A stretch of 43,646 bases of DNA from a virus, in the IMG/VR virus record IMGVR_UViG_3300037549_000085, positions 1-43,646 of that record. One strand, written 5' to 3'. Below, one piece after another: positions 1-43,163 of this stretch. The notes beneath the pieces are model-generated. The model did not search any database. It was not told where the DNA came from and saw only the letters and a list, made by a program, of their open reading frames with translations. Numbering within the stretch: the first letter of the stretch is position 1; every line of letters starts with the position of its first letter. Made by a program: the position numbers and the translations under genes.

Positions 1-127
1 CGTGCCGTCACCATTCACGATGTCGCTGGTGTCTTGCATGTTTTTGACCGTGGAGAGCGATTGCGCGAGCGCCTGCTGTTTGACGGTCTTTTGGATTACC
101 TGCGTCATATCCCCGATGTCTTGGGTG
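1..127. repeat. 127-bp exact direct repeat, left copy (assembly or terminal overlap)
   Basis: Bases 1-127 match 38,029-38,155 without a mismatch. The next base differs (C at 128, G at 38,156) and identity then falls to roughly 80%. The repeat lies in the same reading frame of the same ejection-protein gene in both places. A repeat that starts at the first base of the contig and is exactly 127 long is what a de Bruijn assembler with k=127 leaves when a path re-enters a shared node. That origin is inference; the identity itself is read directly. Confidence 0.9.
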
Positions 128-807: not shown

Positions 808-808
808 G

Positions 809-1315: not shown

Positions 1316-1725
1316 AAAGCCCCCTCTTTCACGATTGCCCAGCAATCATAGTCACGGTCGTTGATAAATTTGCGCTTAAGCCCCTCATGGGCGAAGCCTA
1401 GCCACTTGTGCCAAACCTGTATTTTGCGCACTGCCAAGCTCTCAGTTTGGAAGCGAACAGCGCCCAAATCAGCGATAGCTTGGTGCAGAAACGCCTTAAC
1501 CTCATGCGCCCATTGCAGGGTATAGCCTGCGCATAGCAACAGGAAACCTGACCAGCACCGGCCATGATAGTTGCGGAATACGATGAAAGCCCGCACGCGG
1601 TGGTCAACAATTTGCGTCTGCACATGAAAGCGGCCAGTGAGCAGCTCGCGCACGTCATCAATGGTTGAAAACTCGTTTGGCTCAAAGCCGTCAAGGTCGA
1701 TGTCCGTAAAGCGTCTAATCATCAT
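1294..1725 (-). CDS. GNAT-like acetyltransferase-type virion-module protein, gp13 position, allele A
   Basis: A 143-aa protein between the tail nozzle and the small ejection protein, a position often held in T7-like podoviruses by a gp13-like or acetyltransferase-fold protein. The core resembles a GNAT fold: VRAFIVFRNYHGRCWSGFLLLCAGYTLQ, then a helix and FQTESLAVRKIQVWHKWLGFAHEGLKRKFINDRDYDCWAIVKE, where the HKWLGF segment recalls the GNAT C-terminal YEKLGF motif. No clear acetyl-CoA loop (RxxGxG) is seen, so catalysis is doubtful. ATG 1723-1725 overlaps the nozzle stop (ATGA). Compared with allele B (39,354-39,761) the stop has been lost by a small deletion, adding about eight residues (LWAGKVM end) read from the next gene's start. 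Confidence 0.7.
   Translation of the reverse strand: MMIRRFTDIDLDGFEPNEFSTIDDVRELLTGRFHVQTQIVDHRVRAFIVFRNYHGRCWSGFLLLCAGYTLQWAHEVKAFLHQAIADLGAVRFQTESLAVRKIQVWHKWLGFAHEGLKRKFINDRDYDCWAIVKEGALWAGKVM
1515..1530. repeat. Palindrome copy inside a coding region (GCAGGGTATAGCCTGC)
   Basis: One-mismatch variant of the RCAGGYTATARCCTGY repeat, lying inside the acetyltransferase-like gene where it encodes AGYTL on the minus strand. The equivalent position in allele B (about 39,560) encodes DYSL with different codons and lacks the palindrome. This copy may therefore be a by-product of protein sequence. Confidence 0.4.
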
Positions 1726-3836
1726 TGCACCGAGTAATTGGCTTCGACAGCGTTGCTTGTCAGGATTGCGGGGAGAGGGTCAGATTGCACAACATAGACG
1801 TACTTATCTTCCTCGCTATCGTCCGTAATTTCAACATCATAGGTGCCGTCAAGCGGTGCTGGTGGCAGATAGTTGAGGTTTGGTGTGGTACGCAGCTGCA
1901 CGTCAGTCAGGTCATACAGGCTGGTGCCAGCTCTGACGCCCATGCTGGAGACAAAGCGCAGGCTGAATTTAGAGACAATCTTGAAGGTCACCTGAGTGTT
2001 TTTGCCCTGCATGACGAAGCCAAGGCTCATTGATTTCATGATGCCCGTGTATTGCAGGCCAATGACAATGCTGGTGGTCTGGTTTGGAAGCGTGATTGCG
2101 CCCCCGCTGACAGTCACAGCGTCGAGGAAACCGCCGTCAGTGATCAACCCTACCTGTTTGCCGTTGTATTGGCTCAGGCCGCTTATGGTGACGAAAGACT
2201 TGTACCAGGATGACCAGACATACAGGTTGGTGCTCACAGGCCCCGCGCTGTCGATTTTAGGGGTCTGCAAGACGGTTGCGCTCACGGTGGTGGCATTCGT
2301 ATAGGCCGTGATGATATAGCGCCCGCTTTCGTAGCCTGTGGCAGTTTTGTACGCGATATGCTTGCCAACGTCAGCGCTTGTGAAGTCATTGGCCGTTGAG
2401 ACAATCGTACCGCTGGGCTCATTTCCATAATTCGGGTCTGTGCCGGTAGGCGTGAAAGTGATGGTCGAGGTGCGGTAATCCTGAAACGTCAGGCTGTTAT
2501 CGAGGTAATTGCACCCGCGCAGCTGCTCGCTCACATAGCGCAGATACGCTTCTTGGTCGATGTCCTGATTTTGAGCCTGATTGGTGATGTCGGTTGAAGG
2601 CGTCCAAAAGTCTTGGAGCTTCTTAAACTCGACATAATCCGCTTGGCGCTCAACGTAGAAAGTGCCGTTGCGATTAACAAGAGCGAAAAGCTGAGGATTA
2701 CCAAGGTTATTGCCCATAACAGCGATGTCATTAAAAGTGCCTTGAGTGTTGCGCACATGCCAACCATTGATGTTTTCCTTCTCCTGGAATACGAGCGAGA
2801 TAATGTTCCCGTCACCACGCAGGCTGTAAATCAGGTTGTTGCGGTCATGCCGGTAACGGATTTTGCTGATGTTGCCGCGTGTCACGTCATACGCCTCAAG
2901 GTTGGCGTCCGATGACAGGAAAGCCTCAGTCAGAATATCGTACTTGAAGCTGTACATATTGCGGCTGGCGCGGCCCACGTAGAAAATGAGGCCGTCCTTC
3001 TTCAACGGGTAAAAGCCGTTGGTGGGCTCAGCAGAGCTGATGTTGGCCTGCACCGTCGAGGCGGTGATAGCCGTGTTGACCGTCCCGCCGTTGACCGCAA
3101 TGATGCCGTCAGTCGAGCCCACGATGAGGCTGTTATCACCTGGGAAAATCCACTCAATCTGCTGCACGATGTCGGTGCAGGTGAAGCTAAACGGCGATGC
3201 GTCCGTAACGGGGTTATCCGTCAGGGTGAAGTCATCATAGGCCGCAATGCGCGACATCCACAGCGTGGTGAGGTTTGTTGGCGTTGACCCGTACCACAGA
3301 CGCCCTTTGTAGAAACACACCGCACCAGGCCAATTTGGGCTCGTGAAGGGGTTATTTACCCAGCTGGGTGTTGTGATGGTGAAGGTGTTTGAGCTTGTGC
3401 GCGTAAGCACCCTGGGCTGGTAATTGCGATGCGCAAGGTACATCACGTCAGAGTTTTGCGTGAAAGCCCCGCGCTGAGCAATAAACTTGATGTCGGCCAG
3501 CGTCCAAGGCGTGGTCAGCTGGTACGGCGTACCGCCATTGAGCACCCAGCCAAAGTTGCCGTTGGTGTCATAGGCCAGAAACTGAAACTGCGCGTTGGTC
3601 GCGCAAATCAGGTAATCCTGGGTGATGCCAAACTTAAATTCGAGAAAGGCGCAGTCCTGAAAGGCAACCTCGCTGATGAAGCCAGACGAGAAAATGGCGT
3701 TGCCTTTGTAATTGCTTATCCAGTTGGTAAAGATGTCTTGGCCGGTGTTGTAGGTCGGCAGGTCATAACGGCCATTTAAGTCATGGTCGAGCTGCCCTTT
3801 GACGTAATTACCGAAGGCGGTGACAACGGTGCTCAT
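1722..3836 (-). CDS. Tail nozzle / tail tubular protein B-like, allele A
   Basis: A 704-aa beta-rich structural protein, close to the size of T7 gp12 (about 790 aa), lying directly after the adaptor gene. Recognisable features are an N-terminal VKGQLDHDLNGRYDLPTYNTG segment, the FKFGITQDYLICATN and FYKGRLWYGSTPTNLTTLWMSR blocks typical of podoviral stabilisation/nozzle proteins, and a central beta-propeller-like stretch (EWIFPGDNSLIVGSTDGIIAV, IRYRHDRNNLIYSLRGDG). The start ATG overlaps the adaptor stop (ATGA at 3,833-3,836) and the stop overlaps the next start. No signal or membrane segment. It is about four-fifths identical by eye to allele B (39,758-41,884). Confidence 0.9.
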   Translation of the reverse strand: MSTVVTAFGNYVKGQLDHDLNGRYDLPTYNTGQDIFTNWISNYKGNAIFSSGFISEVAFQDCAFLEFKFGITQDYLICATNAQFQFLAYDTNGNFGWVLNGGTPYQLTTPWTLADIKFIAQRGAFTQNSDVMYLAHRNYQPRVLTRTSSNTFTITTPSWVNNPFTSPNWPGAVCFYKGRLWYGSTPTNLTTLWMSRIAAYDDFTLTDNPVTDASPFSFTCTDIVQQIEWIFPGDNSLIVGSTDGIIAVNGGTVNTAITASTVQANISSAEPTNGFYPLKKDGLIFYVGRASRNMYSFKYDILTEAFLSSDANLEAYDVTRGNISKIRYRHDRNNLIYSLRGDGNIISLVFQEKENINGWHVRNTQGTFNDIAVMGNNLGNPQLFALVNRNGTFYVERQADYVEFKKLQDFWTPSTDITNQAQNQDIDQEAYLRYVSEQLRGCNYLDNSLTFQDYRTSTITFTPTGTDPNYGNEPSGTIVSTANDFTSADVGKHIAYKTATGYESGRYIITAYTNATTVSATVLQTPKIDSAGPVSTNLYVWSSWYKSFVTISGLSQYNGKQVGLITDGGFLDAVTVSGGAITLPNQTTSIVIGLQYTGIMKSMSLGFVMQGKNTQVTFKIVSKFSLRFVSSMGVRAGTSLYDLTDVQLRTTPNLNYLPPAPLDGTYDVEITDDSEEDKYVYVVQSDPLPAILTSNAVEANYSVQ

Positions 3837-4462
3837 TGCTTTTCATCCTGAGCGCCACCAAATCGGCCATAACGGCTGTCACGCATACGCGAGGTCGAGC
3901 GCCGGATAGGCTTGTTTTCCTGAGCGTTCTGCGCGGTGGTGTTGAGAAACTCCTGCAATGCGTCTTTCATCATGCTGGTCTTTTTGCTGGCGTCTTGCGT
4001 GCTGGCGAGCGCGGTGCATTTGCCCAGCACAAACACAAAGGCCATCGTGAAGTCAGGTGTAAAGCGCGTCACATCGGTCACATCGTCAATGATGCGGATT
4101 GGCATACCTGACGTGTAAAGGTCATTCGTGAAAATCATGCCGCTTTCGACTGTCGGAGGGCTGCGCACATCGTCAATACGGCCAACGCCCAGCAGCTTGA
4201 GGCAACGCACTGGGTATTCGTAGGCGTAGCCATAAAAGCCCACGTAGCCTGCTGGCAGTGTCACCTGGCTCACGATAAGACGGAACAGGGCAAAGTTGGG
4301 CATGAGCGACTTAAGCAGGTATTGCCGGATGAGGTCATACCAAAGGGCAAAGTTCTTTTCTTTATCCGATACCGGCGTGGTGATGTTGTTGATGCTGTTC
4401 TTCATCCCCAGCGAGCCGTTGGCTAGGTTACAAATCCATTCTGGGGTGTTGATTGCGGCCAT
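3833..4462 (-). CDS. Tail adaptor / tail tubular protein A-like, allele A
   Basis: A 209-aa protein matching the length of T7 gp11-like gatekeeper/adaptor proteins (about 196 aa) that link the portal ring to the nozzle. The N-terminus (MAAINTPEWICNLANGSLGMKNSINNITTP) leads into a helical YDLIRQYLLKSLMPNFALFR segment. The middle contains YEYPVRCLKLLGVGRIDD and RFTPDFTMAFVFVLGKCTALAS, the latter close to the adaptor signature in which an Asp-Phe pair precedes a helix that packs on the portal. The Shine-Dalgarno TTAGGAGA lies just before the ATG and abuts a terminator-like hairpin. Homologous to 41,887-42,513. Confidence 0.88.
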   Translation of the reverse strand: MAAINTPEWICNLANGSLGMKNSINNITTPVSDKEKNFALWYDLIRQYLLKSLMPNFALFRLIVSQVTLPAGYVGFYGYAYEYPVRCLKLLGVGRIDDVRSPPTVESGMIFTNDLYTSGMPIRIIDDVTDVTRFTPDFTMAFVFVLGKCTALASTQDASKKTSMMKDALQEFLNTTAQNAQENKPIRRSTSRMRDSRYGRFGGAQDEKQ

Positions 4463-4477
4463 ATAACGTCTCCTAAG

Positions 4478-4518
4478 AAAAAAGGGGCGATGCCGATTTA
4501 GTCACGGTCACCGCCCCT
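4478..4518 (-). terminator. Terminator-like hairpin between the 172-aa virion gene and the tail adaptor gene, allele A
   Basis: On the minus strand AGGGGCG (4,518-4,512) pairs with CGCCCCT (4,489-4,483). Six T follow (plus-strand A run 4,478-4,483) and then the adaptor ribosome-binding site TTAGGAGA. Allele B has a stronger hairpin at the same place. A leaky terminator here could lower tail expression relative to head genes. Confidence 0.65.
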
Positions 4519-4542
4519 GTATTAACCTTCACGGGCTACAGT

Positions 4543-5061
4543 TTAGCGCGTGGTGGCCTCGTCAATCATCGTATCAAGGTCAATCAGGCCGCCAGCGGTG
4601 TTGGCCGTAGGCAACGTGAGGACGAGATAGATACCACCAACCGGTGCCTGGTCAGGCCCGATGAGCAGTAAATCGCGGATTGGCTTGGTCGTATCGAGAG
4701 CACCGTTTTTAGCGGAGAGAACGTCAGACCATACCGTGACCGCGGTGGCCAAGGAAACACCTGACCAAAGCTCGTTACCGCCGCCCGACTTCACAGGCTT
4801 CAAGGTCTGTGAGTTCATGTCGAGGTAGTAAAAGCCAAGGTTGGCGTTGGTCGCCGTGGTGAGGGCCGCCATTGCCTGCGAGAAGATGCGGGCAATACGG
4901 TCATCAAGCGTCAACGGGCCAGCCAGTACGTACGTGTCGCCTGCCACACCCGTTGTAGGAACGGTGTAGCGAGCATTGACGGTACGATACCGCTTGCCAG
5001 GGCCGAAGGCAGGAGACAGCGGGTAAGCTGCTTTGCCGATTGAGTTAAGGTTCTGCGTCAT
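4543..5061 (-). CDS. Virion-module protein of unknown function, allele A
   Basis: A 172-aa protein I do not recognise by family. It lies between the presumed capsid decoration protein and the tail adaptor and is homologous along its length to 42,591-43,124. It is soluble and beta-rich, with a VNARYTVPTTGVAGDTYVLAGPLTLDDRIARIFSQAMAALT core and a GGGNELWSGVSL loop. Gene order (capsid, 154-aa protein, this, adaptor) suggests a head-completion or head-surface protein. It is followed by a terminator-like hairpin, so it is the last gene of the head sub-operon. Confidence 0.7.
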   Translation of the reverse strand: MTQNLNSIGKAAYPLSPAFGPGKRYRTVNARYTVPTTGVAGDTYVLAGPLTLDDRIARIFSQAMAALTTATNANLGFYYLDMNSQTLKPVKSGGGNELWSGVSLATAVTVWSDVLSAKNGALDTTKPIRDLLLIGPDQAPVGGIYLVLTLPTANTAGGLIDLDTMIDEATTR

Positions 5062-5102
5062 AGTGGTTACCTCTTAAAGTTTGTGTTGCATTAAACCAAG
5101 GC

Positions 5103-5567
5103 TTAGCTGAACGGCGTGACAGCGACACCAGAGCCCAGCATATTCGCTTCCACGCGCCACTCACCGTAATTGACATCTTCAATTTCGATGTAAGTGCCGA
5201 CGAGGCCGCCTTGGGTGCTACCATTCATGGTGATAGTGCCGTTGGCGGTTGCTGCGAAGGTGCCAGGGGTAGCGCCGGTGACAGTCGCAACGCCCCAAAT
5301 CTTATCTGTCGCGCCAGTCTTAGGGTTGTTACCCGTTTGGACTTTTAGCGTGGCAGTTCCGGTATAGGTCGTTTCGACATAAAGGCGGTACATACCACCC
5401 TTGCCGGTGGCGAAAGGAAGGACGAGAGCTTGACCTGCTGCCAGGTTCAAACGCACGTTCTGCCTGTCGCCTTGCTTAAGCTCGCTCAGCTGTAAGGCTG
5501 CGGCAGTGATACTGACGCGGCTGTACTTCTGTAGCTGGTCTAAGCGTTTCTTTTTGGGACGTGACAT
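5103..5567 (-). CDS. Probable head decoration/stabilisation protein, allele A
   Basis: A 154-aa protein directly downstream of the major capsid gene, the usual place of a capsid-cementing protein. A short basic N-terminus (MSRPKKKRLDQLQKYSR) is followed by a beta-rich domain with a conserved GGMYRLYVET strand and a glycine/threonine-rich FAATANGTITMNGSTQGG repeat-like hairpin. Starts at ATG 5,565-5,567 after AAGGAGGGTCAC. Allele B at 43,164-43,628 keeps the N-terminus, the FAATANGTITMNGSTQGGL block and the EANMLGSG end but differs in the middle. The decoration role is inferred from position, size and fold-like composition only. Confidence 0.6.
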   Translation of the reverse strand: MSRPKKKRLDQLQKYSRVSITAAALQLSELKQGDRQNVRLNLAAGQALVLPFATGKGGMYRLYVETTYTGTATLKVQTGNNPKTGATDKIWGVATVTGATPGTFAATANGTITMNGSTQGGLVGTYIEIEDVNYGEWRVEANMLGSGVAVTPFS

Positions 5568-5599
5568 GTGTGACCCTCCTTAAGGGTTAACGAGTTGCG

Positions 5600-6720: not shown

Positions 6721-6736
6721 GCAGGCTATACTCTGT
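6721..6736. promoter_or_regulatory. Operator-like palindrome upstream of the capsid gene (GCAGGCTATACTCTGT)
   Basis: Degenerate member of the dispersed 16-bp palindrome. It lies between the terminator at 6,744-6,773 and the capsid start at 6,538. On the minus strand it falls in the spacer of a possible weak promoter (TTGCGT, 17 nt, AACTTA). A promoter here would fit the independent capsid sub-operon, but the hexamers are poor. Confidence 0.45.
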
Positions 6737-6743: not shown

Positions 6744-6773
6744 AAGCCCCACGGTGCGTAATCCGTGGGGCTT
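6744..6773 (-). terminator. Rho-independent terminator upstream of the capsid gene
   Basis: A perfect 11-bp stem (AAGCCCCACGG at 6,744-6,754 pairing with 6,763-6,773) with an 8-nt loop. On the minus strand it reads out into CTTTTGCG. It follows the stop of the 253-aa gene (6,817) and separates it from the capsid gene. The 6,539-6,816 gap otherwise shows only the operator-like site and AT-rich sequence. Confidence 0.8.
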
Positions 6774-12985: not shown

Positions 12986-13428
12986 GGTTTCCAGCAATAG
13001 CAAACGAGTTGAGGGGTGAAAGCTTCCTTTTCGAGGAGCTTTGCCAGCGGCGCACCGTATGGGCATTGCACCACGCAGACTTTGAAAGCTCTATTTCTGA
13101 CAAAATCCTTGGCAAGATGAATAAGCGCTTTCCCAGCACCCGTTGTACGATAATCTTTCATGACAAACAGACTTTCGACAATCGCCACACCTGGGCCAAA
13201 GTGCAGGCTATAACCTGCAATGATTGCCATGAAGCCCACCAGCTTACCGTCAACACGGACTGCCCAGCTGTCGAGCACACCGGCATCCTCACGGCTCTGG
13301 TAATCGGATTGCTTGAATACTGGGGTTGGCATGGTGGGGCTTGAGTGCAGGCTATACTCTGCGGTCATTGCCGCAAAATTTGGGTCTGCGTAAAGCTCGC
13401 GCACGCAGGAGGGTTGAATATCCATCAT
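12982..13428 (-). CDS. GNAT-family N-acetyltransferase
   Basis: A 148-aa protein with a GNAT core: WAVRVDGKLVGFMAIIAGYSLHF (strands 2-4), VESLFVMKDYRTTGAGKALIHLAKDFVR with the acetyl-CoA pyrophosphate-binding loop RTTGAGK (residues 94-100), and VQCPYGAPLAKLLEKEAF near the C-terminus. It lies between terL and the cupin-like gene, with ATGA overlaps on both sides. Many podoviruses carry such a gene here; the substrate is unknown. Two copies of the 16-bp palindrome lie inside the coding sequence and encode AGYSL and EYSL. Confidence 0.85.
   Translation of the reverse strand: MMDIQPSCVRELYADPNFAAMTAEYSLHSSPTMPTPVFKQSDYQSREDAGVLDSWAVRVDGKLVGFMAIIAGYSLHFGPGVAIVESLFVMKDYRTTGAGKALIHLAKDFVRNRAFKVCVVQCPYGAPLAKLLEKEAFTPQLVCYCWKP
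13203..13218. repeat. Palindrome copy inside the GNAT gene (GCAGGCTATAACCTGC)
   Basis: A perfect palindromic member of the dispersed repeat, differing only at one terminal base from the operator at 21,004-21,019. It is coding on the minus strand (AGYSL). It could bind the same regulator or be coincidental. Confidence 0.6.
13347..13362. repeat. Palindrome copy inside the GNAT gene (GCAGGCTATACTCTGC)
   Basis: Degenerate copy near the 5' end of the GNAT gene, 144 bp from the perfect copy. It has the same TATACTCTG variant half as the site at 6,721. It encodes EYSL on the minus strand. Confidence 0.5.
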
Positions 13429-16122: not shown

Positions 16123-16511
16123 GGTTTCTCCTTGGCGGGTTTCGTGTTGCAGAGTGTAGCCTGTATCTTGCACGTTTCAAAGAGCAATTTGAGGTGGCCG
16201 TAAGCACCCTCCAAAATATCAAGTCGCTGGTGCATGTAGCCTATTGTCTCAATGAATTGCTCCAGTTTGGTGTTTTTGTCGATGATGTACGCCATATCAA
16301 GCCTGAGCTGCGCCATCTCTGCACCGGCTGTCATGCGCTGGTAAAGCGGGTTGTCCTCCTTGACCTTTTCAAGGGCCTTGCGCTTATCGTCTGCCTCCTT
16401 AGCCAAGGCTGCGCGGTTCGAGTATTTGTTGCGCATGAAGTTGTAAAAACGCTCGTCAGAGTATGCCCAAAACATACCGTTTTCGCTTTGTGGGTCGCTG
16501 TCGTGCATCAT
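16119..16511 (-). CDS. Hypothetical coiled-coil protein
   Basis: A 130-aa, strongly helical protein. Charged heptads run from NRAALAKEADDKRKALEKVKEDN to LRLDMAYIIDKNTKLEQFIETIGYMHQRLDILEGAYGHLKLLFETC. It overlaps the primase-helicase stop (ATGA) and the next gene by four bases. The 3' end carries the promoter/operator candidate for the following gene. Function unknown. Confidence 0.65.
   Translation of the reverse strand: MMHDSDPQSENGMFWAYSDERFYNFMRNKYSNRAALAKEADDKRKALEKVKEDNPLYQRMTAGAEMAQLRLDMAYIIDKNTKLEQFIETIGYMHQRLDILEGAYGHLKLLFETCKIQATLCNTKPAKEKP
16149..16180 (-). promoter_or_regulatory. Candidate leftward promoter with operator variant upstream of the packaging genes
   Basis: On the minus strand TTGAAA (16,180-16,175), 16 nt, TACACT (16,158-16,153), about 30 nt from the ATG at 16,122. 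The palindrome variant GCAGAGTGTAGCCTGT (16,149-16,164) overlaps the -10 box. Binding there would block RNA polymerase. Weaker match than the control-region sites. Confidence 0.45.
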
Positions 16512-18748: not shown

Positions 18749-18985
18749 TCAGCCTGCCTTGCTGAGGATGGTAAACTCTCCAACGCGGAAATTCATACAG
18801 CGTTTCTGGTGCTCAGGCTGCACTTTGATGACGCCGTTTTTGTAAATCTCAACGATGACGCCCCGCGGCGCTGGGCGAGAATGCTTTTCGAGGAGTGCGC
18901 CGCGCTGTCCGGAAACAACAAACTCAGTTTCTTCTGCTTTGCCCCACTCAACGGTATCGCCAATTTCCGGTGTTAAATCATCCAT
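18749..18985 (-). CDS. Small beta-barrel-like hypothetical protein
   Basis: A 78-aa protein (MDDLTPEIGDTVEWGKAEETEFVVSG...RGVIVEIYKNGVIKVQPEHQKRCMNFRVGEFTIL) with alternating short strands as in SH3/KOW-like barrels. Good ribosome-binding site (GGAGGGTCACT). It is the first gene after the noncoding block, and a promoter with an overlapping operator lies 40-75 bp upstream, so it likely begins the replication sub-operon. Function unknown. Confidence 0.65.
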   Translation of the reverse strand: MDDLTPEIGDTVEWGKAEETEFVVSGQRGALLEKHSRPAPRGVIVEIYKNGVIKVQPEHQKRCMNFRVGEFTILSKAG

Positions 18986-19030
18986 AGTGACCCTCCAAAG
19001 TTATGCAGGTTTCCAAATCTGCGTAAGGTG

Positions 19031-19059
19031 AGAATAGACTACAGGCTACAACCTGTAAA
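19031..19059 (-). promoter_or_regulatory. Leftward sigma70-like promoter overlapped by operator
   Basis: Minus strand: TTTACA (19,059-19,054), 17-nt spacer, TATTCT (19,036-19,031), giving a start near 19,024 and a leader of about 40 nt to the ATG at 18,985. The palindrome ACAGGCTACAACCTGT (19,041-19,056) covers the -35 edge and most of the spacer, the same arrangement as in the control region. Confidence 0.65.
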
Positions 19060-19080
19060 GTGAAACTTGTGGTTTCAAGT

Positions 19081-19116
19081 TGCCAGAGGGCAACATTTTT
19101 GGAAACTGCCCTCTGG
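19081..19116. repeat. Perfect 11-bp inverted repeat (hairpin)
   Basis: GCCAGAGGGCA at 19,081-19,091 pairs with TGCCCTCTGGC at 19,106-19,116 around a 14-nt loop. No T-run follows on either strand, so it is not a standard terminator. A smaller AACTTG/CAAGTT repeat lies next to it (about 19,065-19,081). It could be an RNA structure, a protein site or part of an origin. Confidence 0.7.
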
Positions 19117-19539
19117 CGGTGCCTTGGAGGTCTGGCCTTGGCTTTGGGCAGAATATGTCCTTGAAACTCAAACTGCAACCCTCTTGGCTACGTGGGTAAG
19201 GGCATTCGTGGGTGAGCTCACATTTCGAGGCCGTTTCGTTACTTGCGTCTTTTGCACTATCGCCAACGTGAGATAGGACGCCCCCCTACCCCCCTTTATT
19301 TTTGAGCATGTTGCATTTAAGCAAAAATCGGGAAGGATTTGTTTTTGTGGACATTGGGACGAAAGAAGGGGTTGCACCGGTTCGCCTACCAACGGGCCAT
19401 GACGCAAGTGGTGACACGGCAATCATGGCTGGGGGTGTGGTTGCGGCGGTGTGTGCTGCCGGTTTTATCCGGCTGATTTGACCCTCTGCACACGGCGCGA
19501 TGGTGCCGCTATATCCGTGTGTGGGGAATTGTTCAGTGC

Positions 19540-19568
19540 TTGTTTTTTATGCGCGAATGGCATAAATT
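19540..19568 (+). promoter_or_regulatory. Candidate rightward promoter for a small RNA
   Basis: TTGTTT (19,540-19,545), 17-nt spacer, TAAATT (19,563-19,568). Transcription would start near 19,575, antisense to the surrounding operon and directly upstream of two hairpins. Sequence-only prediction. Confidence 0.4.
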
Positions 19569-19574
19569 GGAGCT

Positions 19575-19645
19575 CTGAATAACACCGCCGCGAACGGTCT
19601 GTTATTCTCTGAGGGGGGGATGGGAGTCCTCCCCTCTTCATTTTC
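19575..19645 (+). ncRNA. Candidate ~70-nt small RNA with two hairpins
   Basis: Downstream of the predicted promoter, GAATAACA (19,577-19,584) pairs with TGTTATTC (19,600-19,607). A second GC-rich hairpin, GAGGGG (19,611-19,616) with CCCCTC (19,631-19,636), follows and is trailed by TTCATTTTC, a weak intrinsic-terminator pattern. There is no credible open reading frame. The second hairpin could instead terminate the leftward resolvase transcript, which ends at 19,644. Confidence 0.4.
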
Positions 19646-20204
19646 AGGATACGTCCTGAGCTTTGTATTCGTCAATGACAATATCGACCTGCATCAATTT
19701 TGGGTTTTGATGCAGGAAACTGGGCTGCACACCGCGCCGCGAGCTAATTACCCAGTACAGCGCAATTGCGTCAGCCTCGTTGTTGTTGGTGTCCGTTCCT
19801 TCTCTGCCGTTTTTCCAGCCGAGGTTTGTTGCCACTTGGCAAATCTCATTCTTTTTCGCAACACCACTGCCGGTAAAATCTTTTTTCACCTGACCAGGCG
19901 TAAGGCTCGCCATGCGCTTCTTGTGCGCGAGAGCAAAGATTTGCAGTATGCCGAGGAGTGCGCCGTACACGCGCATAGCAAGAACACCGTTCTTTGCCAT
20001 AAACATCACGTCCTCAAATAAAATCTCGTCCACCTGGTGAAACTGAAATAGCCAGTTTTGAAAACGCAGCCAGCGGTGGCCAGGGTGCGCGTCTTTGCCA
20101 GAGGAAAGGGTGACTTCACCACTGTCGATAATCACGCCGTTATTGGCCAAGCACCAGCCAGTGGTGCTGCCGAGGTCGAGCGCAAGCGTGGTAAAGTCAC
20201 CCAT
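19644..20204 (-). CDS. RuvC-like Holliday junction resolvase
   Basis: A 186-aa RNase H-fold protein. LALDLGSTTGWCL near the N-terminus supplies the first catalytic Asp and the glycine-rich turn. DEILFEDVMF gives the catalytic Glu after strand 4. VKKDFTGSGVAKKNEICQVATNLGW is the basic helical part. NNNEADAIALYWV gives the last acidic residue. These match RuvC/phage resolvases, which cut four-way junctions to debranch DNA before packaging. Located 5 nt after the GapR-like gene; the role fits headful packaging of branched concatemers. Confidence 0.88.
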   Translation of the reverse strand: MGDFTTLALDLGSTTGWCLANNGVIIDSGEVTLSSGKDAHPGHRWLRFQNWLFQFHQVDEILFEDVMFMAKNGVLAMRVYGALLGILQIFALAHKKRMASLTPGQVKKDFTGSGVAKKNEICQVATNLGWKNGREGTDTNNNEADAIALYWVISSRRGVQPSFLHQNPKLMQVDIVIDEYKAQDVS

Positions 20205-20209
20205 TGCCG

Positions 20210-20701
20210 TTATCCTTCGCGTTCGATGCGCTGGGGCTGTTTGTCCTCTGCGTCATCTTCATCGTCGTTGACTTCAAAGCCTGCACCGGCATTGCCACCA
20301 GCAAGCGCAGCCTCGCTAGGCTGAGCCTTCTGGCTGGCCTTGGTCGGCGTGCCTTCCACGAAGTCGAGCTGCGGCTGATAGCCCAGCATTTTCTTAAAGT
20401 CCTCGTGGTTGCTTTCGACCTGCACGCGCACATCGGGGTCAAGTTTGCGCAGAGCGACTTCACGCGCCACCGAGGTGCTGAGAATACCAAACTCAGTTTT
20501 CAGGCGATTGCGGCAATCGCGCTCAGCTTTGGCGATGCTCTTTTTCTGGTCTTGGAAAGCCATAATCTCGTTGATGAGATTGACAGCTTCGGGGCTTATT
20601 TCCCCATTGCTGTTATGACCTATATTGGCAACAGGCTTTGGGCCAGCCGGTTTCTTTTCAGCCTTGTCCTTCTTGGCTTTCGGCGGGACTTTATCGCTCA
20701 T
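20210..20701 (-). CDS. GapR/DUF2312-like nucleoid-type protein (probable)
   Basis: A 163-aa protein with a Lys-rich start, the NIGHNSNGEIS motif common to alphaproteobacterial phage and GapR-like proteins, and a coiled-coil AVNLINEIMAFQDQKKSIAKAERDCRNRLKTEFGI resembling the GapR helical core that clamps overtwisted DNA. The remainder (ALRKLDPDVRVQVESNHEDFKKMLGYQPQLDF) is followed by a disordered acidic tail (NDDEDDAED). GapR assists replication in Caulobacter; a phage version near resolvase and primase genes fits. Similarity is judged by eye. Confidence 0.6.
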   Translation of the reverse strand: MSDKVPPKAKKDKAEKKPAGPKPVANIGHNSNGEISPEAVNLINEIMAFQDQKKSIAKAERDCRNRLKTEFGILSTSVAREVALRKLDPDVRVQVESNHEDFKKMLGYQPQLDFVEGTPTKASQKAQPSEAALAGGNAGAGFEVNDDEDDAEDKQPQRIEREG

Positions 20702-20991
20702 GGTATGCTCCTTCTTTTGATGACTAACGGTTTGAGTGGTAGGAGCCTTGTCTCACCCTTACGGTTGCCCCTGGGAATGACCGTAACAGGATTTTGCATG
20801 AAGGACAAAGACGCTTCCATAATTCGCACAGAAACGTCTTTGCCATCACGCAGGCGGGTAACGAGGTCTTTGTCGTGCATGACGTACCAACCAAACTGGT
20901 TGCCGTCATTGTCCATATCGTTGATGGTTAAAAATTCCTCAATCTGTTCGAGGAGCCATTCTGATAGGGTTTGGGGTGCTGTGTTTTCCAT
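20698..20991 (-). CDS. Divergent helix-turn-helix-like regulator, first gene of the leftward operon
   Basis: A 97-aa protein from ATG 20,989-20,991 (MENTAPQTLSEWLLEQIEEFL). The segment QFGWYVMHDKDLVTRLRDGKDVSVRIMEASLSFMQNP fits the small alphaproteobacterial family whose core reads FGxxxxxDPxxVxxLRxGRxxxxxTxxRVxxFM, an HTH-type DNA-binding domain. There is no Shine-Dalgarno. The predicted -10 box (20,999-21,004) ends only 7 nt before the ATG, so the mRNA would be leaderless, like lambda cI from PRM. Being promoter-proximal to two operators makes it a good repressor candidate. The family call is from pattern memory. Confidence 0.6.
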   Translation of the reverse strand: MENTAPQTLSEWLLEQIEEFLTINDMDNDGNQFGWYVMHDKDLVTRLRDGKDVSVRIMEASLSFMQNPVTVIPRGNRKGETRLLPLKPLVIKRRSIP

Positions 20992-20998
20992 AAATCGT

Positions 20999-21027
20999 AC
21001 TATACAGGTTATAGCCTGCATTGACAA
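20999..21027 (-). promoter_or_regulatory. Leftward control-region promoter (leaderless)
   Basis: Minus strand: TTGTCA (21,027-21,022), 17-nt spacer, TATAGT (21,004-20,999). The next 7 nt lead straight to the ATG at 20,991, so transcription should start at or within a base of the start codon. The operator GCAGGCTATAACCTGT (21,019-21,004) fills the spacer and touches the -10. Confidence 0.75.
21004..21019. promoter_or_regulatory. Operator palindrome, left site (ACAGGTTATAGCCTGC)
   Basis: Near-perfect 16-bp palindrome within the spacer of the leftward promoter. Its centre is 25 bp from that of the right-hand site, so the two repressor dimers would not be on exactly the same helical phase. Confidence 0.75.
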
Positions 21028-21049
21028 GACAGGTTATAGCCTGTAATAT
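21021..21049 (+). promoter_or_regulatory. Rightward control-region promoter
   Basis: TTGACA (21,021-21,026, consensus), 17-nt spacer, TAATAT (21,044-21,049); predicted start near 21,056 and a 46-nt leader to the ATG at 21,102. The -35 box overlaps the leftward -35 by five bases, so the two promoters are exactly back-to-back and probably compete for polymerase. An operator lies in the spacer. Confidence 0.8.
21029..21044. promoter_or_regulatory. Operator palindrome, right site (ACAGGTTATAGCCTGT)
   Basis: A 16-bp palindrome, symmetric apart from the central T/C-A/G pair, between the -35 and -10 of the rightward promoter. It differs from the left site at one terminal base. Confidence 0.75.
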
Positions 21050-21101
21050 ACAACCCATAGCTGATGTCTTGGAAACCATCGGCGCACACTTTGGAGGTCA
21101 C

Positions 21102-21311
21102 ATGTCAAATCAATATAGGCCAGTTAGAGGTCGCCCGTTTGTTAGCGACAGTAAACTTGCGCAACAAACATCAAAGCCCAAATTCAGCTGCGAATACTGC
21201 GGTTCGCCATGTTCTCCGCACCACTCACTTTGTTTCAAGTGTGCTGAAAGCGGTTACCCTGAGGGTGGCTTAGAGCCCTTGGACGAAAACGGCCCGTGGG
21301 GCGCACCATGA
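21102..21311 (+). CDS. Small zinc-ribbon protein, first gene of the rightward operon
   Basis: A 69-aa protein behind a strong TTGGAGGTCAC. A single zinc-ribbon-like core, CEYCGSPCSPHHSLCFKC, carries two CxxC pairs. A basic N-terminus (RPVRGRPFVSDSK) may contact nucleic acid. No named family. ATGA overlap with the next gene. Confidence 0.7.
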   Translation: MSNQYRPVRGRPFVSDSKLAQQTSKPKFSCEYCGSPCSPHHSLCFKCAESGYPEGGLEPLDENGPWGAP

Positions 21312-23828: not shown

Positions 23829-24051
23829 CGTCGATGTAGTCATGGGTCAGAACCTGCGCAGCCTGCGGGCTGTGGCAGGCCTGTCTCAGGCTGAGCTGGG
23901 CGCTCGCTGCGATGACAACCTGAGCAGCCAGCAAATCAGCAAATACGAGCTGGGGGATAACTCTATTTCTTGCGCTCGCTTAATCGAGTTTGTCGGTATC
24001 CTGAATTGTCGAGTGCTCGACTTTTTCAAAGGGGTAACGCCACATGCTTGA
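23815..24051 (+). CDS. Cro/Xre-type helix-turn-helix repressor
   Basis: A 78-aa protein from ATG 23,815 (AGGGTGA upstream), overlapping the ERF stop by 14 bp. It has a clear HTH_XRE domain: MGQNLRSLRAVAGLSQAELGARC...LSSQQISKYELGDNSISCARLIEFVGILNCRVLDFF. There is no protease or dimerisation domain, as in Cro. It is expressed from the rightward operon, so it is the natural candidate for feedback on the operators at 21.0 kb; this is inference. Confidence 0.9.
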   Translation: MQQLSVDVVMGQNLRSLRAVAGLSQAELGARCDDNLSSQQISKYELGDNSISCARLIEFVGILNCRVLDFFKGVTPHA

Positions 24052-28805: not shown

Positions 28806-29108
28806 TCAGGGGGCGTGCGGCCAGTCAGGTATCTCGACAGTTTTCCCCGTCAAGTGATGGGTGCAATCATTGAGAAATTCAATCTTACCGTCCCTAACCC
28901 ATGAATGGCATACGTCAGGCGGCTTGTCCTCACCATTGCGCCAGCGTCTTGAGAGAATTGACGGCTGGAAGGTTGGCTTTACAGGGTCACCGTTATATTC
29001 CCAGCTAGGCCGTCCTGTTGACGTGCCGCGCATAGGCAATACATGATAACCCTTGCAGCCTGGGCATTTGAAAATCTTGCAACCGTCTGTGGTTGTTTTG
29101 ACCTTCAT
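28806..29108 (-). CDS. DUF6527-like protein
   Basis: A 100-aa protein from ATG 29,106-29,108, overlapping the Rz stop. Pattern: CKIFKCPGCKGYHVLPMRG...WEYNGDPVKPTFQPSILSRRW...CHSWVRDGKIEFLNDCTHHLTGKTVEIPDW. This reproduces the DUF6527 family layout (CPGC, FNGD..PTxxPS, CHxxVxxGxIxFLxDCxHxLxGxTVxLP). The four Cys and three His suggest a bound metal. Often found near phage lysis genes; function unknown. Confidence 0.75.
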   Translation of the reverse strand: MKVKTTTDGCKIFKCPGCKGYHVLPMRGTSTGRPSWEYNGDPVKPTFQPSILSRRWRNGEDKPPDVCHSWVRDGKIEFLNDCTHHLTGKTVEIPDWPHAP

Positions 29109-32317: not shown

Positions 32318-35300
32318 TTACTGTTTTTCTCCATGAGCCGCATGATAGGTACGGTTTGCGCTTTCAACGATGCTTTGGATAATCGCCTGCCGCTGAGCAA
32401 TTTGTGCGGCCTTCTGGTCGCCCGACAGCTGAGGGTTTTGCGTAATCATCCGTATCTCGTGCTCTTGGGCGTGAACCTGATTATTGGCAGCCTGCATGGG
32501 TGGATAAACCGCCAAATCTTGGTGGTTGTCCCGCGCAAAGTCAGCCTGGTCTTTGCCCTTGGCTTCCTTGTACCGGTTCTGCTGCTGCTCAGTGTCCTCG
32601 ACATGCTGGTTAAATTCCTGAAACGAGGCGCTGTTTGTGCCGACAGGAGCTTGCTGGAGCAGAGGGCCATAAATCGGATTGTCAGAGCCCTTGGTGGGGC
32701 GCTGGTTGACCTGCTGGCCCTGCATACGGCGAGCCGTGTTAATCGCCATATCGCCCAGCTGCTCACCATAGACGCCGATGTGCGCAGCCATGTCATAGGC
32801 CGTGTTGTCGATGTCGGCAGGCGAGATACCGAACAGTTTGCCCAGCGCTTTGGCGCTTTCGCTCGTACCGCTGTTAAACTGGTTTTCTGGCGCGGTCTTT
32901 TTGATGTCGCCTGAGAAAATCGGCATATCGCGGTAAAAGTTGAAATTGGCCTTGGCTTCAATGGCCGCTTTCATCAATGGCGGGATTGTCTGCGTCCAGT
33001 CGGTTGAAGGGCTGACCGAGTTGATGGTGTCGCCAATCAAGCCCAGCCAGAAGTGCTTGAGCTCAGGATGCGCGATGCCCGACATGTGTATCATGAATTT
33101 CTCAGGCAAAGCGCCAAACACGAAACCAGGCGCGAAGGCACGCGGGAACGGTATCCAGCGCCCGTCAATCTTGATATTCATGGCCGCTGAGCGCCGGAAG
33201 TCATTGAGGTTGAGATATTCCTGGCGCGTTTTATCGTCAGCCGCAAACAGGTAATAACCGCTGACCAGCAGCTGCGGCATGGTGATGAGGGCGATTGCAC
33301 GCAGGCTATAACCTGCGGGGTCACGTTTGACGGCGCGAATGAAGCGGTCAGCACCTTGCAGACGGTCATTGAAGAACGGCGAATAGGCGTTGATTTCCTT
33401 GCCCAGAGAGCCGTGACGGATGTAATTGCCTGTTGCCTCAAGTGACAGGAAACCGGCCTCTAAATCGCTGTAGCCCGCGTCCTTGAGGCGCTCATAGGCC
33501 GCGATACGTGGGGCATAATCGGACACCTGCTTTGCCGTATCCCAACCCTGACCGGCCAGCTTGGCCCAGTTGCGCGGGTCAAGGAATTTGGCCATGTCGT
33601 TGCTCTTAAAAAGCTCGTCATGGATTTTGGACAAGCCTTTGTCGCTGGTATCCATCGCGGTGCGCAATGCGCCTGAGCTGCTGGCCCATTCGCGGTAAGC
33701 GTCAGTCTTGCCGATGACGGCGGCGATGCCCTTGGGGATTTCCACCACAAAGTGCTGGAGGAAGCCCATAGGCCCAGCCTTGAGAGGCGTGTTGACGAAT
33801 GATGATTGAGCGCCGCGCAGAAAATGGCGAGCGATGAAATACGGGTTATTGGTCGCACCAAACTGCAACAGGCGTGCCTGCGCTTTGCCGATTTTGGCGA
33901 GGAAGCCACCAACCATTGTGCTCTGCACCTGGTCAAGGCCCTTGAATGCCCGCGTCAGGTCATCATCCATGTGGATGAATTTGAGTTTGCCGTTATCGTA
34001 AAACGGCAGGCTGTTTTTGGGGCCTTTGAAGTCCAAAAGCTCTTTCTGAATTGTCTCTTGCGCACGTTGGGTGCTGGGCTCAATCTGCTTGAGCGCAGCC
34101 AGGTCTGGTTTGTTGTCGATGAATTTCTCAAACAGCACCTTGGCAAGCGGTGCTTTACGCTCCACCTGCTCTGGGCTGTTAACCCATGCGTCGAAGAAAT
34201 TGGCCAGCACCTCGTCATCATTTTTAACGTAATCCACGTATTTTTGCGGGTTACGTTCAAACGCTTCGGCAAACTCTGTTTTGCCTTCTGGGGTGCGCTC
34301 CAGGGTGATGTTGCTGCGCAGCCTATCCTCAGCGAGGCCTTGCAGCTCCTCTTTGATTTTTGCGCTGCCCAGCATCTTCTTTTTCAGGCCGTACTTGTAA
34401 TCCAGCATGTGGCCGATTTCGTGCGTAAGGGTGCCTTCTGTGGTGCCTGGGCGCAGATATGTCTTTCTGGTGCTGGGCTCGTATGCGCCAAGGTTGCCCT
34501 TGAGCTGTGGGGTGTTTTTTACGTCATCTTGTTTCGGACGTACCACCTCACCACGCATGGCAGTTGCGATTTGCTCCAGCTTGGTGCGCAGCTTCGGGTC
34601 ATAGCTATGCTCAACCTTGGCGCGGATAATCATGGGCGGTTTTACCTGCACCTTTTCAGGGTAGTATTCCGCATATTTGGCCACGTCACCGCGCACCTTG
34701 TTGAGCGCCGCACGCTTCAAAATGATTGAGGTGTTGCGGATACGGCTTTGGGTCTTGTCCATAATCTCGCGCTTAGACCCACCGCGCTCTTTCAACGCGC
34801 CGATATTGGCAGGGTTTACGTCAGAGCCGAGGCCTTTGCCCTTAAGCGCGGCCACATCCTCTGGGTATTCTGTCTCAACCACACGCGCCGTGGAGCTGTA
34901 CCACTCGCGTTTGCCAATGAGGTCATCGTACCAGGCTTGGCTCTTGAGGCCAGAGGTGACCAGATTGTGCAAAATGCGGTTATCAAAATCGGTTTCCTCT
35001 TTGGCGAATGTCTCAAACCAAGGCATTTTCTCGCCGTATTTTTCGTTGAGGCGCTGCACCGTGGCTTGGCTTTCGGCATAATCCTTGTCGCTCACCTGGC
35101 CGTAACCCTTGTTTTTGTCCTCAAGCAACGTCATTGCGTTCTCGAAAGCGTCAAGGTCATCGTGGCGCGTGTCGCGGTTGGGCTCGACCTGCGAAAACAT
35201 GTTGTCAAAGTCATCGCGGATTTGCTTGAGGCCTTTGCCGGTGACAACCTGGTTGCCTTCATTGTCCCAGCTGGTGGTGCCGGTGGTCAGCTGACGCTCG

Positions 35301-37252: not shown

Positions 37253-38835
37253 TATTGCTCCTCAGGCGGTACGCCCTGTAAAAGAATGCCAGGGTCTGGA
37301 CTTGGCGATTTGGTGCTTCCAATATCGTCGCCAGTGTCAAGAGGCTGCGCCTGGCGGGTCGCTGGCTTCTTGGCGGCATTTTGACGCAGCATTTGGATGA
37401 CTTGCTGCTGGCTCATGCCGTGTTTCTGCGCGGTGTATGCGAGCTGGTCAGGTGTGTAACCCAAGCCTTGCAGGAAAGCCGTATCGCTGCCTTGCAGATT
37501 TTGTAGGGTCGATTGTGCGGCACCGCGGCGCTGCTTGTTCACCTGGTCGATAATCTGGTTGGCTTGGTTGCTAAGCTGAGCGTCCGTCATGTTCTGGCCA
37601 TGCGATGCATAGAACAGCGCACGAGTGGCCTGACCGCGGTATTCAGGCGGCAGCGTGTTAAACTTCTGGTTGGCGTCATAAAACTCGTTGCCAGCCGTAT
37701 TGGTGGCCGATGCGAGCTTTGCGCTGGTGAGCCCCCCGATTTCCTTGTTGAGCTTCTGCGCGTCCTGCGCGGTGAGCTCGTTGTTGGCCTGCATCTGCAT
37801 AACCTGGTCTTGGATGTTTTTGACACCCACCAGGTAATCGTCAGGGTTCATGGAGGCTGAGGCGTTGAGGTCATAAACGCTGTTGATGACTGTAGCCATT
37901 TTGGGTGTGTCGGTCTGCGCGTCGAGGTCTGTGCGCGATGTCAGCACGCGGCGAGCAATGGCTGCATCCTTGGGCGCAATAGTGCCATCCATTTCGCCTT
38001 GGTCGAGCTGAGCGCGTTTCTGGTAATACGTGCCGTCACCATTCACGATGTCGCTGGTGTCTTGCATGTTTTTGACCGTGGAGAGCGATTGCGCGAGCGC
38101 CTGCTGTTTGACGGTCTTTTGGATTACCTGCGTCATATCCCCGATGTCTTGGGTGGTGAAATGCTGGGCAATGGCAGGGTCTTGCAAGAGCTGCGCGGCA
38201 CGCACGGGGTCGCTCTGCGCAACACCGGCAACAAACGATTTTGCATAATCGGCGTTAAAGTCCTTGAGGAAGGCGCCGGTTTTGTCTGAGCCAAGCACAG
38301 GGTCAGCAAACTGGTGCATCGAGCTCATGGCTTGCTGGTAATTCAAAGCACTTTGCAGGTCAGCGTCAGGGTCTTGCGCAAATGCCTGCCCAGCCACATT
38401 GGCCTCATTCAAATACGTCACGCGGCCAGTCTGGAGGTTGCTGACGCCGTTGCGGATTTGTTGCTTTGTTGCCCATGCCGCGTTGAGGTCATCGCTCTGC
38501 GTTCCCAGCTCGACGGTCTTATTGGTAAAATCGCGCATGGCGATGGCAGGCACATTGGCGCTCTGTGCGTCCACAATCTTCTGACGGGCTTGCTGGAGGT
38601 TTTGTAGCGCAACAGGATTGGTGGGGTCATCGGCATTCTGCAAGCGGTATTGGCTGTCAAGCTGACGAAACTGGCTTTGGGTGGCTGCTGTCGCTGACAA
38701 GGCCTTCCCTGCTGCCGACATCGTTGCAGCTTGCTCTGCCACCTGCCCAGCGGCATCGGCAAGCGCCGTGGTCTGGTCTTGCTCTGGCGTGACGTTTGTT
38801 ACGGTTGGGTCAAAATTGAGGTTTCTATCGGCCAT
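37252..38835 (-). CDS. Ejection (internal virion) protein, gp15-like, complete (allele B N-terminus)
   Basis: A 527-aa, helical, Gln/Ala/Asp-rich soluble protein (MADRNLNFDPTVTNVTPEQDQTTALADAAGQVAEQAATM...), shorter than T7 gp15 (747 aa) but in the same position between the gp14- and gp16-like genes. The C-terminal half (37,252-38,028) is single-copy in the window. The N-terminal half is the B allele of 1-807. The switch from shared to diverged sequence lies at 38,155/38,156, about codon 227. Stop overlaps the next ATG (TAATG). Function by synteny. Confidence 0.8.
   Translation of the reverse strand: MADRNLNFDPTVTNVTPEQDQTTALADAAGQVAEQAATMSAAGKALSATAATQSQFRQLDSQYRLQNADDPTNPVALQNLQQARQKIVDAQSANVPAIAMRDFTNKTVELGTQSDDLNAAWATKQQIRNGVSNLQTGRVTYLNEANVAGQAFAQDPDADLQSALNYQQAMSSMHQFADPVLGSDKTGAFLKDFNADYAKSFVAGVAQSDPVRAAQLLQDPAIAQHFTTQDIGDMTQVIQKTVKQQALAQSLSTVKNMQDTSDIVNGDGTYYQKRAQLDQGEMDGTIAPKDAAIARRVLTSRTDLDAQTDTPKMATVINSVYDLNASASMNPDDYLVGVKNIQDQVMQMQANNELTAQDAQKLNKEIGGLTSAKLASATNTAGNEFYDANQKFNTLPPEYRGQATRALFYASHGQNMTDAQLSNQANQIIDQVNKQRRGAAQSTLQNLQGSDTAFLQGLGYTPDQLAYTAQKHGMSQQQVIQMLRQNAAKKPATRQAQPLDTGDDIGSTKSPSPDPGILLQGVPPEEQ
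38029..38155. repeat. 127-bp exact direct repeat, right copy
   Basis: Identical to bases 1-127. The distance between copies, 38,028 bp, is the predicted unit length of the circular genome. To the left the sequence is single-copy; to the right it is a diverged second version of 128-5,567. Confidence 0.9.
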
Positions 38836-38844
38836 AGCTGCCCC

Positions 38845-39351
38845 TTAAAACGGTGATTGGTACGGGCCGACAGGTGAAGGGTCGAGAGCCCCACCAATCG
38901 ACTGCCCCAGCGCATTCGTGTCGCCGGTCTTCAAGAAGCTACCCAGGAAAGAACTATCGCCGGTGTTGCCGCCTGGCGTTGCCGCTGTGCTGCCGCCAAA
39001 GAGCTTGAGGGCTGAGCTGCCAAGACCGCTGAGCGCTGCGGCGCGGGCTGCTGTGTTGGCGTTGGAGATTGCCGCATTGGCGTTGTTTTGCGTGCGCGTG
39101 ATGTCGGTCTGACCCTGGCCAAATGCTTGCGTGATGACTTGGTTGACCGCCGTATTGGGGTCAAGCGCGATGCCAGATTGCAGGTATGAGGTTTGGAGCG
39201 TGCCAGCGCGGCGCAGCGTGTTGTTGGCGATGTTTTGCTCTTGGTAATTCGCCTCTGTCTGTGTGGCAGTGTTCTTTGAGTTTGCCGTCGAGAAATTCGA
39301 GGCTGCGCCCAGAAACGATGATGCCGCGGTTACGTCACTTTCCCAGCTCAT
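38845..39351 (-). CDS. Small ejection (internal virion) protein, gp14-like, allele B
   Basis: 168 aa from ATG 39,349-39,351 (MSWESDVTAASSFLGAASNF), exactly the length of allele A (809-1,315). Conserved blocks are QTSYLQSGIALDPNTAV, ITQAFGQGQTDI and the hydrophobic AALSGLGSSALKLFGG patch. Differences cluster between residues 85-105 and 126-145. It starts 2 nt after the upstream stop, without the overlap seen in allele A. Confidence 0.7.
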   Translation of the reverse strand: MSWESDVTAASSFLGAASNFSTANSKNTATQTEANYQEQNIANNTLRRAGTLQTSYLQSGIALDPNTAVNQVITQAFGQGQTDITRTQNNANAAISNANTAARAAALSGLGSSALKLFGGSTAATPGGNTGDSSFLGSFLKTGDTNALGQSIGGALDPSPVGPYQSPF

Positions 39352-39353
39352 TT

Positions 39354-39761
39354 TTACGCCCCCTCTGTAACGATTGCCCAGCAATCATAATCACGGTCAA
39401 AGATGAATTTCTTCTTGTGGCCTTCGTAGGTAAACCCCAGCCATTCGTGCCAGGCTTTGATGGTCGGATGGCTCAGGCTTTCGGTCTGGAAGCGCTGGGC
39501 GCCAAGGTCGCGGATGGCGTCATGCAGGAAGCGCTTGAGCTCGCGGGCGCATTGAAGACTGTAATCCGCACAAATCAGCAGGAAACCTGACCAGCACCGG
39601 CCCCAATAATTGCGGAAAACGATGATTGCCTGCACCTTATCGGCATGCACCTGGCTTTGCACGCGGAAGGCTGGATTTGTCAGCACCGTGAAATCAGGCA
39701 ATTGCGAGAATTCGTTTGGTGTGAAGTGCTCTAAATCCTTGATGTTAAACGGTCTAATCAT
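39354..39761 (-). CDS. GNAT-like acetyltransferase-type virion-module protein, gp13 position, allele B
   Basis: 135 aa (MIRPFNIKDLEHFTPNEFSQLPDF...), ATGA overlap with the nozzle gene. Same core as allele A: QAIIVFRNYWGRCWSGFLLICADYSLQCAREL and AWHEWLGFTYEGHKKKFIFDRDYDCWAIVTEGA. The protein ends at a TAA that allele A has lost. The palindrome found in allele A is absent here although the encoded YSL is kept. Confidence 0.7.
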   Translation of the reverse strand: MIRPFNIKDLEHFTPNEFSQLPDFTVLTNPAFRVQSQVHADKVQAIIVFRNYWGRCWSGFLLICADYSLQCARELKRFLHDAIRDLGAQRFQTESLSHPTIKAWHEWLGFTYEGHKKKFIFDRDYDCWAIVTEGA

Positions 39762-41884: not shown

Positions 41885-41886
41885 GT

Positions 41887-42513: not shown

Positions 42514-42528
42514 CGTGTGCCTCCTAAG

Positions 42529-42561
42529 AAAAAAGGGCAGCGGTTGATGCCGCCGCCCTTT
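42529..42561 (-). terminator. Terminator-like hairpin upstream of the tail adaptor, allele B
   Basis: Minus strand AAAGGGCGGCGG (42,561-42,550) pairs with CCGCTGCCCTTT (42,543-42,532) through one G-U pair around a six-base loop, followed by six T (plus-strand A run 42,529-42,534) and TTAGGAGG. The loop and stem differ from allele A but the position is the same, which supports function. Confidence 0.75.
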
Positions 42562-42590
42562 CTGTTTGCTCTACAGTCGAGCCATCCCGA

Positions 42591-43124: not shown

Positions 43125-43163
43125 TTTTGTTTACCTCGTAAGTTAGAGTTGTTGTGACCAGGC

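Follow-up and report, generated by a model that had tools for sequence, protein, structure and literature searches.

In phage lambda, the small HTH protein Cro, made from PR, represses PR and the promoter that diverges from it. In phage P1, a single phage repressor, C1, governs a regulon of 22 dispersed operators (PMC8546580), and in L5 the repressor sites lie at promoters as well as scattered in transcription units (PMC9283540). A regulated switch on overlapping divergent promoters has been described for pLS20 (PMC4207663), and the small C-protein C.Kpn2I can act as a roadblock to elongation (PMC6237814).

Here we analyse a pair of divergent promoters, PR and PL, in the record of an uncultured virus; the window refers to the whole stretch of DNA that was analysed (43,646 nt). 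In principle, and by analogy, P1 C1 and the L5 stoperators would be the nearest known systems. As in P1, a single phage repressor would act on many operators across the genome, but the P1 operators are asymmetric 17-mers in a temperate phage, whereas here there are about eight near-palindromic sites and no temperate functions were found. As in L5, sites occur both at promoters and dispersed; the L5 sites, in contrast, are asymmetric 13-mers, more than 20 in number, oriented with transcription and bound by a monomeric repressor of 183 residues, whereas those of the window are near-palindromic and the candidate regulator is a 69-aa protein, expected to be a dimer. The likeness to lambda lies in a small HTH protein from PR that would repress PR and the divergent promoter. 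Unlike in lambda, there are two operators, one per promoter, the -35 boxes overlap, no CI was found, the regulator gene lies approximately 2.8 kb downstream, and operators are present also at a further promoter, P2, and elsewhere. pLS20 differs in being a Gram-positive conjugative plasmid that uses DNA looping. The C-proteins of restriction-modification systems (C.BclI, C.AhdI, C.Kpn2I) are likewise short stand-alone XRE proteins, but the sites described here lie on phage operons instead of genes for a restriction enzyme and a methylase. The locus stands apart from the known systems in that its sites are near-palindromic, its candidate regulator is very small, there is nothing to suggest lysogeny, and the operator letters are re-specified at matching places in relatives.

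Divergent promoters and dispersed operators

The left arm of the window (minus strand) carries gp97, gp163, a RuvC-like gene, gp78, gp158 and a DnaB-like helicase/primase, followed by the terminases and then by GNAT, portal, scaffold, capsid and tail genes. On the right arm, small genes are followed by those for an exonuclease VIII-like protein, for an ERF annealing protein and for the XRE protein. Cultured phages gave distant matches to the portal and exonuclease only. Three promoters are considered here:

21021-21049, plus strand: PR promoter, -35 TTGACA (21021-21026), 17-bp spacer, -10 TAATAT (21044-21049)
20999-21027, minus strand: PL promoter, -35 TTGTCA (21027-21022), 17-bp spacer, -10 TATAGT (21004-20999)
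19036-19064, minus strand: P2 promoter ahead of gp78, gp158 and the helicase, TTCACT (19064-19059), 17-bp spacer, TAGTCT (19041-19036)

PR and PL occupy 51 bp (20999-21049), each matching the sigma70 consensus at 10 of 12 positions, with -35 and -10 hexamers at the 16-18 bp spacing of a sigma70 pair on both strands. The preliminary description had claimed two near-consensus divergent promoters whose -35 hexamers overlap by five bases; its coordinates proved exact (the overlap is 21022-21026), and this is the sole overlapping -35 pair with at least 10/12 matches on both sides in the window, none being found in 150 dinucleotide shuffles. A second, weaker overlapping -35 pair, with 9/12 matches on each side and 18-bp spacers, is seen at 29016-29023; a quarter of shuffles contain such a pair. 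Since the -35 region is shared, polymerase bound at PR would exclude polymerase from PL and vice versa, as had been suggested. PR is predicted to drive the right operon, with its recombination and regulator genes, and PL to drive the left operon, beginning with gp97. As the gp97 ATG is 7 nt beyond the PL -10, this mRNA may be leaderless.

The operators and operator-like sites of the window, to which no strand is assigned, are as follows:

21029-21044: operator O_R in the PR spacer, ACAGGTTATAGCCTGT, 7/8 symmetric pairs
21004-21019: operator O_L in the PL spacer, ACAGGTTATAGCCTGC, 6/8 symmetric pairs
19041-19056: P2 operator in the P2 spacer, ACAGGCTACAACCTGT
16149-16164: operator-like site at the gp130/gp120 junction, 3 mismatches
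13347-13362: operator-like site in the GNAT gene, 66 nt from the gene start
13203-13218: operator copy in the GNAT gene, a palindrome match
6721-6736: operator-like site upstream of the major capsid gene
1515-1530: operator copy in a second GNAT-like gene (gnat2), a palindrome match
33301-33316: operator copy in the 1644-aa gene, a palindrome match

It had been stated that each spacer contains the same 16-bp palindrome. More exactly, O_R and O_L are near-palindromes, identical at 15 of 16 positions and 25 bp apart, which fill the spacers and each extend one base into the -10 box. With two operators between PR and PL, the contrast drawn earlier with the three-operator layout of lambda holds. 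The term minimal, which had also been applied, does not, as O_R and O_L belong to a genome-wide operator set with more copies than were first listed. The palindrome RCAGGYTATARCCTGY has eight copies with at most two mismatches in the window, against 0.075 expected (starting at 1515, 6721, 13203, 13347, 19041, 21004, 21029 and 33301), and the size of the largest palindrome family is matched by none of 100 shuffles. The window thus holds many copies of one operator above chance, as does a dispersed-operator phage regulon of the P1 C1 or L5 type. An exact match to the spaced palindrome pair was sought in IMG/VR and none was found. A LexA box, which has the form CTGT-N8-ACAG, was rejected as the orientation is wrong.

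Four of the operator copies lie within genes, where no clear promoter was found. It could be argued that the palindromes serve in replication or packaging, or are a coincidence of protein coding, with the promoter overlap incidental; indeed, some copies encode the similar peptides AGYSL, AGYTL and AEYSL in GNAT-like proteins. Against this, exact copies number two compared with a mean of 0.024 in codon-preserving shuffles, none of 500 of which reaches two, and the non-coding copies fill promoter spacers. We therefore give this explanation almost no credence.

Operator positions in related genomes

Six viral contigs have a gene order in common with the window: G001 (L005/L021), G002 (L008/L022), G003 (L009), G004 (L010), G005 (L026) and G006 (L027). 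These and the window form the comparison set, in which all genomes were turned to one orientation for position matching; four of the six are short fragments. PR is kept in all seven genomes as a TTGAC-N17/18-TATAAT-like element, and in the window, G001, G003 and G006 the site matching O_R fills a sigma70-like spacer that ranks in the top 0.6% of random positions or better. PL was dropped as a conserved promoter, its near-consensus hexamers being present in the window and not in the relatives. Counterparts of O_L on the leftward side are found in G001, G002, G003 (degenerate), G005 and G006, and as a 16-bp repeat in G004, such that PR/PL sites recur in 7/7 genomes (degenerate in G003; a leftward-side 16-mer in G004). 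The P2 operator has counterparts in the ruvC-gp158 gap of G001, G002, G005 and G006, and again as the 16-bp repeat in G004, whose exact 16-mer, ACGAAAATAAATTTGT, occurs at exactly two places, the leftward promoter region and P2. In five genomes the site in this gap fills the spacer of a leftward, sigma70-like P2 within the top 0.1-2.9% of random positions. In G003 the same gap holds a tRNA gene (L023, 9472-9543).

Matching positions are not limited to promoters. The site at the gp130/gp120 junction is common to the window, G001, G003 and G006, that 5' of the capsid gene to the window, G001 and G003, and that 66 nt into the GNAT gene to the window and G001, where a version particular to G001 falls on the same codon position. 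The capsid-gene operator comes directly after a terminator-looking inverted repeat (AAGCCCCACGG-N8-CCGTGGGGCTT, window 6744-6773), immediately upstream on the minus strand; comparable terminator-like repeats stand before the matching site in G001 and G003. Such an arrangement brings to mind stoperators, that is, a protein at dispersed sites that halts polymerase during elongation on the left arm, with silencing of the structural genes as the main effect, and that would serve superinfection immunity or a carrier state. The sites in the GNAT and 1644-aa genes exceed codon shuffles, in three genomes a likely terminator ahead of the capsid gene is immediately followed by a site, and a small C-protein can be a roadblock, as is known for C.Kpn2I (PMC6237814). 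However, the best conserved sites are those at the promoters PR and P2, the sites are fewer than the more than 20 13-mers of L5 (PMC9283540), and there is no sign of a temperate phage, all of which leads us to regard silencing of this kind as very unlikely.

The letters of the operators change from one relative to the next. The divergent locus of G001 reads GAAGATTATAATCTGT-tgactt-GAAGATTGCAATCTGA, with changed half-sites, and a family-blind scan of G001, G002, G005 and G006 returned dispersed palindromes that keep the geometry but differ in their letters (GAAGATTATAGTCTTC, TCAGAATAAATTCTGA, ACAAAATAAATTTTGT and ACAAAATATATTTTGT). The size of the palindrome family was reached in 0/100 shuffles for G001, 1/100 for G002, 4/100 for G005 and, at no more than two mismatches, 1/100 for G006, where at three mismatches a different GC-rich palindrome is commoner than the operator family. 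G003 has degenerate copies only and its family does not rise above shuffles; the 23 sites that a loose profile gave in this genome were mostly noise and were discarded. In a distant relative, an array of near-palindromes (CTGTCCTTGAGGACAC / GTGTCCTACAGGACGC, with 18 and 22 bp spacing) is present upstream of the helicase gene (L034, 5045-5158), and the same contig carries an HTH_3 gene. The promoters, the operators, their enrichment and the matching positions with altered half-sites are features of the sequences themselves.

These differences bear on who reads the sites. Each of the 14 control genomes that were searched contains XRE proteins, which would suit a host regulator rather than a phage protein as the reader. 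Yet the half-sites of related phages differ in their letters, and the family of sites follows the phage genome, as would be expected of a reader that the phage itself encodes; the XRE gene, too, is retained in the operon that it would control. The chance that a host regulator is responsible appears to us extremely small. Should the letters have been re-specified relative by relative at matching positions, the evolution of operator specificity would be testable with natural variants.

Both ends of the window (1-5581 and 38028-43642) hold homologous copies of a tail module, gp154 to gp178 with the start of gp527, that are 72.8% identical, whereas G003 and G006 have a single copy. The paired modules are either a diverged duplication or the mark of a chimeric contig.

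Candidate regulators and the mode of control

Two phage proteins come into question as binders of the operators:

23842-24051, plus strand: XRE (HTH_3) regulator, 69 aa, in the PR operon behind the exonuclease and ERF genes
20698-20991, minus strand: gp97, first gene of the left operon, with a predicted fold resembling lambda-repressor-like HTH proteins

We propose the XRE protein as the best candidate. It matches PF01381 (E 2.3e-6, 28 bits against a cut-off of 23) and phrog_3, and its closest solved relatives by sequence, found by profile match, include a MutR-family regulator, C.BclI and C.AhdI. The AlphaFold model is a five-helix HTH fold (pLDDT 87; helices 5-12, 16-22, 29-37, 44-54 and 58-61), and an in-frame ATG at 23815 is also possible as the start. 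The gene occupies the same operon slot, behind ERF, in five genomes (the window, G001, G003, G005 and G006), in which the variable recognition-helix residue that precedes QQ is S, A, F, S and Y, respectively. No XRE gene was detectable on the 20-kb contig of G004, though the repeated site is kept there at both promoters.

Both proteins had been taken for HTH proteins, which holds by sequence for the XRE protein, whereas gp97 has no sequence family match and is HTH-like at the level of the fold. Two opposing HTH regulators, as in lambda, would thus comprise one clear member and one assigned by structure prediction. Most proteins matched by the gp97 model (pLDDT 81.5) are HTH proteins of the lambda-repressor-like kind, and the scores are weak to middling; among them are HipB, C.Esp1396I, ClgR and P22 c2 (Foldseek E 0.25, prob 0.80; VIA Z 5-6). 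From this model, gp97 may be a second DNA-binding protein, and it may bind the operators instead of or together with XRE. Its neighbour gp163 (20210-20701, minus strand) is kept in all relatives and has no family match; its lysine-rich middle is reminiscent of GapR-type DNA-binding proteins of Alphaproteobacteria.

The 51-bp element is real; it looks functional and is larger in extent than was reported, and its mechanism is likely rather than proven. From gene position and operator geometry we infer the identity of the binder, repression by binding and its timing, as follows. The element would consist of divergent host sigma70 promoters with one dimer-type operator in each spacer. On entry, PR would fire strongly and PL in the opposite direction, with the shared -35 region holding one polymerase at a time. 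As XRE accumulates, it would bind O_R, O_L and the P2 operator and block polymerase at all three, thereby limiting the left and replication operons as well as its own. The in-gene copies and the site past the likely terminator before the capsid gene could be operators of weak promoters or elongation roadblocks. The earlier suggestion that one protein could act on both promoters is well accommodated by this geometry, and PR is paired with an operator in relatives too, where the letters have changed but are mostly symmetric. We consider it reasonably probable that PR/PL and O_R/O_L are the centre of a phage regulon in which XRE drives a Cro-like early shut-off by one regulator.

The main competitor of this model is a two-protein switch, in which gp97 and XRE bind both operators with opposite preference, in the style of CI and Cro, to give mutually exclusive states; a bistable switch would need gp97 as the opposing protein. 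In its favour are the retention of gp97 as the first left-operon gene in 7/7 genomes, the structural matches listed above and the steric exclusion between PR and PL. On the other hand, these matches are weak to middling and a common fold proves no function, gp97 lacks a CI-like dimerisation or peptidase domain, and the PL hexamers are not conserved. Furthermore, searches of the seven records, four of them short fragments, gave no match to an integrase (PF00589) or a resolvase (PF00239), and no opposing CI-type repressor was found. Due to the lack of an integrase or resolvase, a Cro-like early shut-off fits better than a lysogeny switch; with no opposing CI-type repressor either, bistability is not indicated and a one-way shut-off is simpler. 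For the same reasons, and since near-consensus PL hexamers are limited to the window while PR is found in 7/7 genomes, we would not retain the word switch from the preliminary description, and we judge the two-protein alternative unlikely. No relatives of gp97 or of the helicase were found in bacterial and archaeal genomes, and therefore neither prophages nor a host were found. With early shut-off by XRE, one small phage protein would probably damp many genes at once, and a possibly virulent phage lineage might in this way coordinate its operons through a single, very small regulator and dispersed operators.

A hairpin in the leaders behind PR and P2

The transcripts from PR and P2 have a second element in common:

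21060-21083, plus strand: PR leader hairpin, GCUGAUG-ucuuggaaac-CAUCGGC, just 5' of the Shine-Dalgarno sequence GGAGG (21093-21097) and the ATG at 21102
19005-19022, minus strand: P2 leader hairpin, GCAG-auuuggaaac-CUGC, before GGAGG and the gp78 ATG (18985)

A hairpin of this type is found directly downstream of PR and P2, close to the Shine-Dalgarno sequence, in 7/7 genomes (in the relatives at L021, L022, L023, L025, L070 and L068). It combines a conserved loop of 8-10 nt near UUGGGAAAC (one member has UCUGGAAG) with a variable stem. The stem covaries strongly: across the four inner pairs covered by the covariation test, 54 of 56 were canonical, whereas 20,000 permutations averaged 27 and reached at most 44, in a test somewhat favoured by hand-picked hairpins and a free loop length (8-10 nt). 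Folding energies are indistinguishable from those of shuffles in most sequences; as they do not stand out, it is covariation and not energy that supports the hairpin. A covariance model gave confident matches limited to its seven training sequences, and in Rfam nothing matched at the gathering threshold or, over 18900-21200, with E<=1. A likeness of the leader to a hammerhead core was dropped, as there is no matching stem II. The leader hairpin is a previously undescribed element.

T4 gene 43 provides a known example of a phage operator in the form of a hairpin that precedes a ribosome site (PMC3014915), and the comparison with the hairpin described here is one of analogy only. Tentatively, and as a possibility rather than an expectation, the early operons could be under double control, with XRE acting on the re-specified PR, PL and P2 operators and a second factor reading the leader hairpin on the PR and P2 transcripts, where the hairpin might act as a translational operator, stabilise the transcript or signal antitermination. 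In G002, approximately 100 nt separate the operator from the P2 hairpin downstream of it, farther than in the other genomes. Because two operons have it in common, the leader hairpin would give a further and independent means of approaching early gene control.
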